Positions 17,490-25,560 of a stretch of 35,980 bases of DNA are shown here, in pieces. Under the pieces are notes generated by a model, which saw only the letters and a program-made list of their open reading frames with translations, ran no database searches and was not told where the DNA came from. Position 1 is the stretch's first letter, and each line of letters opens with the position of its first letter. A program made the position numbers and the translations under genes. This DNA comes from Clostridiales bacterium (GTDB taxonomy: Bacteria > Bacillota > Clostridia > Peptostreptococcales > Acidaminobacteraceae): the NCBI GenBank assembly GCA_030445805.1, contig JASUTA010000003.1:1-35980 (forward strand), read 5' to 3'.

Positions 17490-17840
17490 ATGGATGATAG
17501 ACGCAAAGAGAGACGGTATGAAAATTTAGGCGTCATTGAGTCCTTTAATTTTCATATGAGCAATCGAACCGTCGAGATTAACGCACCGGTTGAAATTTCC
17601 CTAAAAGATATTTCAATGGGCGGACTCGGCATACGATCAAACAAGGCACTGGAAGTGGGAACGACACTTTCGATTCACCTCCAACTCGACCGAGACAGTA
17701 CCATCGTCATCGGGAAGGTCGTTTGGTGTCGGTATGACGGGAGTTTTTTCAATTGCGGACTCAAATTGATTTATATGCCCGATGAACTCATCGACTTTTT
17801 AGAGGTGGCTTCCGAAGAGGGCAATAAGTATATGAATTAG
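17490..17840 (+). CDS. PilZ domain protein (predicted c-di-GMP binding)
   Basis: Arg motif RRKERRYEN and DISMGGLGI (D/NxSxxG), followed by a short beta-barrel sequence. Confidence 0.82.
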   Translation: MDDRRKERRYENLGVIESFNFHMSNRTVEINAPVEISLKDISMGGLGIRSNKALEVGTTLSIHLQLDRDSTIVIGKVVWCRYDGSFFNCGLKLIYMPDELIDFLEVASEEGNKYMN

Positions 17841-20829: not shown

Positions 20830-21480
20830 ATGACGAAGAAAAAAGCGGAAGAAATTATGCAATTATTTGACCGATTGTACCCTGATGCCGGTCCGGAATT
20901 GGATTTTGTGAATCCCTATGAGCTTTTGGTGGCGGTTATTTTGAGTGCGCAGTGCACAGACGTGCGCGTCAATCAGGTCACAAAGGTTTTATTTGATGAA
21001 GCACCGGATGCGTATGCTCTGGAAAATATGACGATTGATCGTTTAGAGGCGATTATTAAACCTTGCGGTCTTTATAAGAGTAAGGCGAAGAACTTATCCG
21101 GGACGGCTCATTTGCTCGTCGAGCAATACGATGGGGAAGTGCCCTCGGATCACGATGCCTTGAAGGCGCTTCCGGGCGTCGGACAAAAGACGGCAAATGT
21201 CGTGGTGAGCAATGCTTTCGGTCAGCCGGCCATTGCAGTGGACACCCATGTTTTCCGCGTTTCCAACCGAATCGGATTGGTCAAGGCAAAAACAGTTGAA
21301 GAGACTGAAAAGCAACTCAGAAAGTTACTGCCGAAAGACAGGTGGAGCAAAGCGCATCATCAGCTCATCTTTCATGGCCGAAGAGTTTGTAAAGCGAGAA
21401 AACCGAATTGCGGCGAATGCTTGATTGCACCGCATTGTGCGTATTATAAAACCATTTCCGGGGAGTCGAACCATGCATGA
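20830..21480 (+). CDS. nth: Endonuclease III
   Basis: HhH ALPGVGQKTANVVVSNAFGQPAIAVDTHVFRVSNRIGL; 4Fe-4S C-x6-C-x2-C-x5-C (CKARKPNCGECLIAPHC). AGGAG SD before ATG 20830. Confidence 0.96.
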   Translation: MTKKKAEEIMQLFDRLYPDAGPELDFVNPYELLVAVILSAQCTDVRVNQVTKVLFDEAPDAYALENMTIDRLEAIIKPCGLYKSKAKNLSGTAHLLVEQYDGEVPSDHDALKALPGVGQKTANVVVSNAFGQPAIAVDTHVFRVSNRIGLVKAKTVEETEKQLRKLLPKDRWSKAHHQLIFHGRRVCKARKPNCGECLIAPHCAYYKTISGESNHA

Positions 21481-23662
21481 AAAACCAGTTAATCCAATGC
21501 CGAAAAATTTGATGTTTGCCCTGGATATCGGGACGCGTAATGTTGTCGGTGTTCTGTCCAGGCGAGAAGGTGAGCGTTACATCGTTGTGGATCACGCAAT
21601 GAAACCGCACCCGGACCGCGCCATGCTTGACGGTCAAATACACGACATACAAAAAGTAACGGAAATCGTTCGGTCTGTTGTAGAAACGCTGGAAGAGCGC
21701 AACGGCTATCAATTGGAACAGGCGGCAATTGCCGCGGCAGGTCGTGCGCTTAAAACGGCTAGAGCAGAGATTGAAGCGGAATTGGATGTGACCAAGGAGA
21801 TCGACAAAGCGGAAACGGACCGACTGGAGATGCAAGCGATTCAGCGTGCTCAAGAATTGCTGTCGGAAGTTTCCGGTGAATATTACTGTGTGGGTTACAG
21901 CGTGATCAACTACTATTTGGACGGCAGTATTATTCTCAATCCGCTCGGGCATCGAGGCAGTAAGCTCAGCGTGGAGATCATTGCCACCTTTTTGCCTCAC
22001 ATTGTTGTAGACAGCTTATATGCGGTGCTCCAAAAAGCGGGACTCGAAGTTATGAACCTGACTTTGGAGCCGATTGCCGCTATCAATGTCGCCATTCCGA
22101 AAAATTTAAGATTACTGAACCTCGCTCTCGTGGATGTGGGCGCAGGGACATCGGATATTGCCATTTCAAAAGACGGTGCCGTGGTTTCATACGGAATGGT
22201 TGCGTCTGCCGGAGATAAATTGACGGAACAAATTGCCCAGACACATCTGATGGATTTTAATCGAGCTGAGGCTTTGAAACTCGAATTAAGCCGAGGGGAT
22301 ATGTGTACTTTTTCCGATATTCTCGGGATGACTCACACGGTTGAGAGCGCGTCTATTTTGGCAGAGCTGGATGAGAAGATCAATGCACTTGCGCATGCGG
22401 TGGCAGAGGACATTTTGGAACTCAATCATAAGCCGCCGAGTGCTATTTTTTGTATCGGGGGCGGCTCTCAAATTCCGGGATTTACGGAAAAGCTGGCGGC
22501 CGCTGTCGGATTACAGAAAGAACGCGTGGTCATTAAGACGGTAAACCAATTGGATCAAGTGGATTTTGACTGTGAGGCTCTTGAGGGACCCGAATTCATT
22601 ACACCGATCGGCATCGGTGTAACGGCTTTTGAAGAACGCGAACAGGATTTTATACAAGTAACGGTGAATGAAACGTCGATTCGACTGTTTAATTCAAAGC
22701 CGCTCCAAGTTTCCGATGCCCTTATCTTAACCGGATACAGTGCAAGAAAGTTGATTTCGGAACGAGGAGAGAGCTATGAAATCACAGTGGACGGGGAAAA
22801 ACGTGAAATTAAAGGCGAATATGGCGAACCCGCAAAAATATTTGTCAACGGCATCCTTGCCGCGCTGGATACTAAGATTGGGAATAAAGATCAAATTCGC
22901 ATCATGTCTGCCGAAAAAGGGAAGCAAAAAATCCTGCATTTGGGGGACGTTATCGGCAAGAGCCGTTCGCTTCGATTGAACGGTCATGAAGTTCCCGTCG
23001 TGGATTATATCCGGGTTAACGGCGTCAATCGGACGGATGAATACAAGGTTGAACCGGGTGATTGGATTGAGACGATCGGCGTCAAGACGGCGAAAGCATT
23101 GGCCGAACGGGTAGAACTGGATTTATCGGCATTTGTGTTTATCAAACGCGGGGCGGTGCTCAGAGGGTCGGATGTCGTTGAACCGGGAGATGAATTGACC
23201 TATCGAAAGCGTCTTTCGGGAGATGCGCCGGTAGAAGCGGACGATGAGAAAACGGAGGCCGCGACATCTTATACGGAAAATGATATTGAAAATGATATTG
23301 AATACGACGGATCCCTTTCTATGCCGGCTGAAGAGGCTGTTGAAAACGACGAAACCTTTGAACTGATCAGAGAACCGGCAAGTGCGGCGAAAGCGATGAA
23401 CCGCCAGCCCGATGATTCGGAAGAAGACGGGGCCGCCGATTTGACGGATGCGCCGCCGTATATTGATGTATTGGTCAACGGAAGCGCTGTGAGAATTCCA
23501 AGGACAAAAAAAGAAATGGTTTTTGTCGATGTTTTTGATTGCATTGACTTTGACCTGTCAAAGCCGAAAGGCATTTTAGAGTTGAAACTCAATACAGAAC
23601 GCGCCCGATACACGGATGTGCTTCATACGGGCGATGTGATTGAAATACAGTGGAAGAATTAG
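21473..23662 (+). CDS. FtsA-like actin-fold protein with ~345-aa C-terminal extension
   Basis: FtsA/PilM ATPase motifs: FALDIGTRNVVGVL, LALVDVGAGTSDIAI, IFCIGGGSQIPGF; SHS2-like insert. C-terminal extension carries repeated '(V)NG...xxGDxI' segments and an acidic linker. Starts 8 nt inside nth. Confidence 0.8.
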   Translation: MHEKPVNPMPKNLMFALDIGTRNVVGVLSRREGERYIVVDHAMKPHPDRAMLDGQIHDIQKVTEIVRSVVETLEERNGYQLEQAAIAAAGRALKTARAEIEAELDVTKEIDKAETDRLEMQAIQRAQELLSEVSGEYYCVGYSVINYYLDGSIILNPLGHRGSKLSVEIIATFLPHIVVDSLYAVLQKAGLEVMNLTLEPIAAINVAIPKNLRLLNLALVDVGAGTSDIAISKDGAVVSYGMVASAGDKLTEQIAQTHLMDFNRAEALKLELSRGDMCTFSDILGMTHTVESASILAELDEKINALAHAVAEDILELNHKPPSAIFCIGGGSQIPGFTEKLAAAVGLQKERVVIKTVNQLDQVDFDCEALEGPEFITPIGIGVTAFEEREQDFIQVTVNETSIRLFNSKPLQVSDALILTGYSARKLISERGESYEITVDGEKREIKGEYGEPAKIFVNGILAALDTKIGNKDQIRIMSAEKGKQKILHLGDVIGKSRSLRLNGHEVPVVDYIRVNGVNRTDEYKVEPGDWIETIGVKTAKALAERVELDLSAFVFIKRGAVLRGSDVVEPGDELTYRKRLSGDAPVEADDEKTEAATSYTENDIENDIEYDGSLSMPAEEAVENDETFELIREPASAAKAMNRQPDDSEEDGAADLTDAPPYIDVLVNGSAVRIPRTKKEMVFVDVFDCIDFDLSKPKGILELKLNTERARYTDVLHTGDVIEIQWKN

Positions 23663-23672
23663 TGGAGATGTT

Positions 23673-24395
23673 ATGAGTGATTTATTTGATCGCGAGTATG
23701 TTTGTCCGATATGCGGCCATGTTTTTTCATCCAAGCAGGTGAAAACGTCGGCGATCCGTACAAAAGCGAGGGAAAAGGATTTCCATGCGACTTTTTATGG
23801 GGAAAATCCTACTTATTACGGGGTGATCTGCTGTGAGGCATGCGGATTTACTCAGTTTGAAAATGATTTTAAAAAGGCTGTTTCGGAAAAATGGAAAGTG
23901 GCTATCCGGGAACGGATTTCCTCGCACTGGCGGACACAAAATTTTTTGGGCCAGAGGGATACCGCGGCGGCGATTAAAGTCCATCTGATTGCGCTTTTGA
24001 ATTATAAGGTACTTGAAACGTCCTACACGACGCTTGGAAAATTGTACTTGAGATTGGCTTGGTTTTACAGGGAACTGGAGAATGAAAGCGAAAGCAAAAA
24101 ATATGTCAAACTGGCTCTTGATGCCTATGTCATGAGCTATGAGACAGAACGATTGAGTGATGAACCGGAGAGAGAACTCGAAATTATTTATTTAATCGGA
24201 GAGTTAAACCGACAACTCGGCAACTATAAGGAGGCTGTTCGATGGTACGGCAATACCATTCACCATGAATACGCCTTTAAAAATCGCTTATTGATCACTT
24301 ATGCAAGAGACCAGTGGGCGCTGGCTGCCGAACAGTATGCACAGGAAAAAAATGATAAGGTTTTACAGGAAGAGAACGAGAGAAAGGATACCTGA
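23673..24395 (+). CDS. DUF2225 family protein (Zn-ribbon-like N-terminus, TPR-like C-terminus)
   Basis: YVCPICGHVFSSKQVKTSAIRTKAREKDFHATFYGENPTYYGVICCEACGFTQFEND; helical repeats follow. Confidence 0.82.
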   Translation: MSDLFDREYVCPICGHVFSSKQVKTSAIRTKAREKDFHATFYGENPTYYGVICCEACGFTQFENDFKKAVSEKWKVAIRERISSHWRTQNFLGQRDTAAAIKVHLIALLNYKVLETSYTTLGKLYLRLAWFYRELENESESKKYVKLALDAYVMSYETERLSDEPERELEIIYLIGELNRQLGNYKEAVRWYGNTIHHEYAFKNRLLITYARDQWALAAEQYAQEKNDKVLQEENERKDT

Positions 24396-25098: not shown

Positions 25099-25560
25099 GT
25101 GAGGGCGGATTTTGTGAATGCATTTGTAAAGGCTTCCACTGAAGTAATCAACAACTTTGTTCCAGATAAATTTTCAGTCGGGAAACCTTTTTTAAGACAG
25201 AATCCTTTTCCAACGAAGGATATTGTCATCATGCTCGGTATAACGGGCGATGTAAAAGGGCAAGCCGTCTTCAGCATGAGTGAAGAGCTGGCGAAGCAAA
25301 TTGCTTCCGGAATGATGATGGGCATGCCGGTTGATACCATGGACGAAATGGCTAAAAGTGCGCTTTCTGAGCTGGCCAATATGATCATGGGAAACTCTGC
25401 CACGCTGATTTTCAATTTGGGTGCCGCGATTGACATTACACCGCCTTCTTTGGTTAAAGGAACCAAGATTGAAATTTCATCGGCAGGCATGGAGACCATT
25501 TGTGTGCCGCTGGTTTCAAATATGGGAGAAATCGAATTCGACATCGGTATAAAAAAATAG
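25099..25560 (+). CDS. cheX: CheX-like (CheC/CheX/FliY phosphatase superfamily) protein
   Basis: NAFVKASTEVINNFV; GQAVFSMSEELAKQIASGMMMG; ALSELANMIMGNSATLIF with the E-xx-N...GN signature. GTG start after AAGGAGG. Confidence 0.85.
   Translation: MRADFVNAFVKASTEVINNFVPDKFSVGKPFLRQNPFPTKDIVIMLGITGDVKGQAVFSMSEELAKQIASGMMMGMPVDTMDEMAKSALSELANMIMGNSATLIFNLGAAIDITPPSLVKGTKIEISSAGMETICVPLVSNMGEIEFDIGIKK

Follow-up and report, generated by a model that had tools for sequence, protein, structure and literature searches.

The stretch of DNA analyzed here, called the window throughout, comprises 35,980 nucleotides (positions 1-35,980 of contig JASUTA010000003.1, forward strand) from the Clostridiales bacterium assembly GCA_030445805.1, a MAG that is 68.8% complete (GTDB lineage Bacteria; Bacillota; Clostridia; Peptostreptococcales; Acidaminobacteraceae). 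Its plus strand carries at 21473..23662 a gene for an FtsA-like protein of 729 aa with a ubiquitin-like tail, hereafter the long protein, as defined by the open reading frame and by orthologs; the coordinates and the peptides quoted in a preliminary description of this DNA proved correct. Directly upstream lies nth (endonuclease III, HhH-GPD; 20830..21480, plus strand; Pfam and synteny), a conserved neighbor that overlaps the start of the ftsA-like gene by 8 bp. The gene directly downstream encodes a DUF2225 protein (23673..24395, plus strand; Pfam and synteny) and is also found near the ftsA-like gene in several other families. The ortholog in Fusibacter bizertensis is 59% identical and its synteny is well conserved. 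Upstream of the ftsA-like gene, the window also encodes a small PilZ-domain protein (17490-17840), and three genes downstream there is a CheX/CheC-like chemotaxis phosphatase (25099-25560), which is kept in Fusibacter (L010:9468-9977).

The N-terminal part of the long protein is an FtsA-type actin core (residues 1-388; 21473..22636, plus strand), delimited by Pfam PilM_2/FtsA matches, invariant columns and Foldseek. The preliminary description had rightly placed the end of the core at PIGIGVTAF (residues 378-386). The ATP motifs DIGT (18-21), DVGAGTSD (221-228) and GGGS (329-332) are invariant or nearly so in an alignment of 44 homologs. The same alignment shows strong conservation within the family of the FtsA/PilM-type subdomain 1C (SHS2-like; approximately residues 84-175; 21722..21997, plus strand; Pfam, model topology and Foldseek), which in the window protein gave a weak SHS2_FTSA match (E 0.038). 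The window protein thus has both the subdomain 1C and the ATP motifs of an FtsA-type core. In the Pfam search of this protein the actin-like core alone was matched (PilM_2 1.5e-12, FtsA 3.4e-9, MreB 2.5e-6). Scores against the NCBIfam models ftsA (TIGR01174; 94.8 bits, far under the cut-off of 175.85) and pilM (TIGR01175; 72.2 bits, cut-off 133) were low, and the EutJ and DDR (diol-dehydratase reactivase) profiles also matched. The AlphaFold2 model built from the alignment of 44 homologs reached a mean pLDDT of 84.8, with residues 588-657 as the sole segment below 50. Among solved structures in the PDB, the best Foldseek match of the core was FtsA (7q6i, E 1.4e-28; 7q6f, TM by target 0.86), followed by PilM (up to 0.77) and then by EutJ, MreB and DnaK. 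Viral structural relatives were mostly Hsp70-type matches, and PADLOC gave no phage-defence model match.

The core is followed by a tail of ~340 aa made of four related ubiquitin-like modules. Module 1 (residues 391-483; 22643..22921, plus strand) contains an inserted beta hairpin, and modules 2 (residues 484-538; 22922..23086, plus strand) and 3 (residues 539-582; 23087..23218, plus strand) are short forms. A disordered acidic linker (residues 588-657; 23234..23443, plus strand; pLDDT < 50, alignment and composition), with 24 D/E vs. 4 K/R and a length that varies among homologs, separates them from module 4 (residues 661-729; 23453..23659, plus strand), which is a complete ThiS/MoaD-like form with no terminal GG. 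All four modules were delimited by models and HHalign, and modules 3 and 4, each absent from some homologs, also by alignment.

The similar segments of the tail had been proposed to be repeats, each a small beta fold of the beta-grasp type. All module pairs aligned in HHalign with probabilities of 88-97% and E-values of 3.2e-7 to 3.6e-11 (four full-module alignments; one comparison each), and their scores were 39-60 vs. at most 10.2 for shuffled-column controls. A half-module HMM detected 3-5 copies in 43 of the 44 homologs (four copies in 33) and none in the cores, and 880 shuffled tails yielded 4 hits; copy 3 of the window protein fell under the threshold of this HMM, but both the structure model and the alignment of the family support it. 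The segments are therefore homologous repeats that survive profile comparison. When the tail was modelled alone with AlphaFold, block-average pLDDT exceeded 90 across nearly all structured parts, and the model matched tandem ubiquitins, ISG15 and bacterial multi-ubiquitin proteins in Foldseek (E 2e-5 to 1e-3). ThiS, Ub-Mut7C and TGS were matched above the Pfam gathering threshold in the tails of several homologs. For the tail of the window protein alone these matches were below threshold, and a profile search against PDB sequences returned weak matches (E > 0.03), several of them MoaD/SAMP2-like. We looked for a single Pfam domain across the extension and found none, only the piecewise ThiS, Ub-Mut7C and TGS matches in homologs. 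Together with the structure models and Foldseek, the Pfam matches in homologs confirm the beta-grasp proposal and show that the modules resemble the ThiS/MoaD type in both fold and sequence. The C-terminal GG used for adenylation/conjugation is absent from the window protein, which ends in ...IEIQWKN, and homologs end similarly. Given the established biochemistry of ThiS/MoaD, this makes it unlikely that the tail serves as a conjugated modifier or sulfur carrier.

We compared the long protein with canonical FtsA. No C-terminal amphipathic membrane-targeting helix was found in the window protein; the chain terminates in a beta strand, in agreement with the preliminary description, which had seen no such helix. 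The helical moment at the C-terminus is 0.2 vs. 0.38-0.91 in 18 canonical FtsAs, and the canonical proteins of Clostridia do finish with an amphipathic helix. The site that binds the FtsZ C-terminal peptide includes residue E303 of E. coli FtsA (PMC13423804). With E. coli numbering set via an alignment with 7q6d, the FtsZ-pocket pair R300/E303 is present in canonical clostridial FtsA (R in 16/18, E in 16/18) and largely missing from the long-protein family (R in 1/44, E in 5/44), a loss deduced from an alignment of distantly related sequences. Profile alignment with E. coli FtsA places the pocket helix in the same register. In an IQ-TREE tree of the cores (unrooted, these two groups only), the long family and canonical FtsA were split by a long branch (100/100). 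Sequence, structure, phylogeny and the missing FtsA hallmarks all support the earlier suggestion of an actin-family protein with duplicated beta-grasp modules that is not a classical FtsA. We conclude that the long protein represents a subfamily of FtsA/PilM actins that is conserved, has apparently not been described before and is marked by its tandem ubiquitin-like tail.

The gene nth is directly upstream in 13 of the 24 first-inspected loci (in one of them a gene on the reverse strand lies in between), where it mostly overlaps the ftsA-like gene or is no more than 90 bp away, and it is upstream on the same strand in about 10 families. In one family polA-coaE precedes the ftsA-like gene. Genome G101 has CoaE (dephospho-CoA kinase) and the FtsA-like protein fused in one open frame of 968 aa (L111:6992-9895); its relatives have coaE as a separate gene directly upstream. 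In another family a gene for a UvrD-type helicase precedes it at a distance that varies, and downstream there are M20-RluD-SpoVB-like genes (the latter named by inspection). A VanW/PG-binding protein is encoded downstream in six loci from five families, and a GGDEF protein follows the gene directly in a group of families (L043, L047, L048, L051, and L118). A search of 44 loci for SOS (LexA-type) boxes near the ftsA-like gene or its upstream operon genes gave 0 hits (0.24 expected), with none near nth in the window, and SOS regulation was rejected.

Of 292 Clostridia genomes sampled, 74 (about a quarter) encode the long protein and 85 a canonical-length FtsA, the latter count including shorter proteins below the cut-off. 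Both are present in 28 genomes, the long protein only in 46, canonical FtsA only in 57, and neither in 161, so that the long protein is the sole FtsA-type protein detected in 46 of its 74 carriers. The idea that the long protein replaces canonical FtsA and that the two exclude each other was rejected, as the 28 genomes with both slightly exceed the 21.5 expected. These genomes, and the many FtsA-less genomes that also lack the long protein, indicate that it is not a simple substitute. Within the family of the window, 22 of 41 genomes carry the long protein and 19 have no copy. The lack of a normal ftsZ neighbor was borne out: in the window MAG ftsZ lies on another contig, where it follows a small-basic-protein-like gene with no ftsA beside it. 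A second, canonical ftsA was sought in this MAG and not found; two weaker actin-like matches were rejected as FtsA, since they are MreB-type proteins. No canonical FtsA was found in Fusibacter bizertensis, and SepF is present there. Each of the other 26 clostridial genomes tested had SepF, Fusibacter bizertensis and genomes with the long protein only among them. The window MAG gave no SepF match, and its incompleteness may explain such absences.

MreB was found in 74/74 carriers, and 31 other genomes had no match (Fisher p 1e-4). We treat this association as a lead only, because the genomes without MreB are largely grouped in other families and the comparison is confounded by clade, with almost no within-family contrast. 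Among family members without the long protein (G416-G423), several show ~1-4 actin-like first-look candidates and carriers mostly 5-16, which hints at a possible joint loss of the long protein and MreB. A link to sporulation was rejected (Spo0A in 62/74 carriers and not in 12, one being the incomplete window MAG; p 0.11). Outside Clostridia, the long protein is rare in Omnitrophota (1/117 sampled genomes), which suggests horizontal transfer. In the Omnitrophota MAGs G294 and G295 the long protein occurs alongside canonical FtsA; one of the long copies is cut short by a contig edge.

The structure of the long protein is well supported; its partner and process we infer. We lean, tentatively, toward an ATP-switched actin-family scaffold that carries ubiquitin-like docking domains, does not tether FtsZ and is concerned more with rod envelope growth than with Z-ring anchoring. 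The core is predicted from sequence and model to be an ATP-binding actin of the FtsA/PilM branch that retains its nucleotide motifs and subdomain 1C, and it may act as a nucleotide-switched oligomer or filament. The two to four ubiquitin-like domains would be docking modules for partner proteins. Lacking a membrane-targeting helix and the FtsZ-peptide pocket signature, the protein would presumably not tether FtsZ directly. A nucleotide-switched core with docking modules would make a soluble or peripheral scaffold, a label that describes a putative role. The likeliest side of action would be envelope growth (MreB/rod machinery) rather than the Z-ring anchor, a role that SepF could fill in carrier genomes. 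Envelope growth is favored by MreB in all 74 carriers and by the VanW/PG-binding protein downstream in six loci. Against it, the MreB link is clade-confounded and VanW occurs only in some families, with DNA-repair genes, a GGDEF protein or M20/RluD/SpoVB-like genes elsewhere.

It is somewhat unlikely that the long protein is instead a functional FtsA, i.e., a scaffold of the divisome that brings in late division proteins via 1C and the tail while SepF anchors the Z-ring. FtsA is the nearest solved fold, ahead of PilM, 1C is highly conserved, and no other FtsA-type protein was detected in 46 of the 74 carriers and in Fusibacter bizertensis. However, the FtsZ-pocket pair and the membrane helix are missing, the protein is kept beside canonical FtsA in 28 genomes, many FtsA-less Clostridia do without it, and a published study reports no FtsA homolog in C. 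difficile. Of lower probability is a DNA-damage-linked actin/Hsp70-type ATPase that is co-expressed with repair genes and couples repair to growth or division. It would account for the same-strand upstream nth, polA-coaE and, more loosely, UvrD-type helicase genes in distinct lineages, but this pattern was picked out post hoc, repair neighbors are missing in several lineages, the nth link may be a single ancestral arrangement, and the 44 loci scanned contain no SOS box. CAC0504 is a putative C. acetobutylicum ortholog of the long protein. It lies within a LexA operon of that species (uvrB-uvrA-CAC0504-0505-0506-0507-uvrC; PMC3828012), which, given orthology, would also favor a DNA-damage role.

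The EutJ and DDR profile matches, and DnaK among the Foldseek matches, would fit an ATPase chaperone akin to Hsp70, EutJ or diol-dehydratase reactivase, with a beta-grasp tail for the binding of client proteins. We consider this improbable, as FtsA fits far better than EutJ or DnaK across the whole core and no client enzyme or microcompartment genes were recognized near the gene. It is very improbable that the long protein is the PilM-type cytoplasmic part of a type IV pilus or of a similar secretion machine: PilM_2 is the top Pfam match and PilM the second-best fold, but the 72 bits scored against the NCBIfam model of PilM fall short of its cut-off of 133, and no pilus assembly genes were recognized beside the gene in the loci inspected.

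Among the Clostridia are important pathogens and species of industrial use, which divide and grow with machinery that deviates from the textbook picture. Many of them have no canonical FtsA. With carriers making up about a quarter of the sampled genomes, the long protein is a concrete candidate replacement. For C. difficile, a published paper calls the replacement of FtsA an open question (PMC10693644); a Peptostreptococcaceae-like genome in the 292-genome sample (G274) that may be C. difficile has no copy of the long protein either. Our literature search found no paper that describes this family or its function, and the joining of an actin fold to tandem ubiquitin-like domains, as in the long protein, was described nowhere in the literature searched. 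It is possible, if doubtful, that the long protein is a widespread undescribed cytoskeletal family, an FtsA-class actin that, by virtue of its tandem ubiquitin-like tail, would be the chief actin-type scaffold of division or elongation in Clostridia without canonical FtsA.

Among known systems, PilM (PF11104, TIGR01175) belongs to the same superfamily, with a Pfam match above the gathering threshold, but its structural fit is poorer, the NCBIfam score stays below cut-off and pilus genes were not recognized nearby. Linear polyubiquitin, ISG15 and bacterial multi-ubiquitin proteins share the consecutive ubiquitin folds; at 6-13% identity the resemblance is structural only, and the long protein lacks a conjugation motif. 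The modules of homologs match the ThiS/MoaD/TGS/Ub-Mut7C Pfam models and are predicted to adopt the ubiquitin fold, whereas those of the long protein are arranged in tandem, fused to an actin core and devoid of a C-terminal GG. FtsA (TIGR01174, PF14450) shares the core fold, 1C and the ATP motifs (~95 bits; Foldseek E ~1e-28). The long protein differs from it in scoring under the cut-off, in having no membrane-targeting helix, pocket pair or ftsZ neighbor, in forming its own clade, and in adding a ubiquitin-like tail of ~340 aa.
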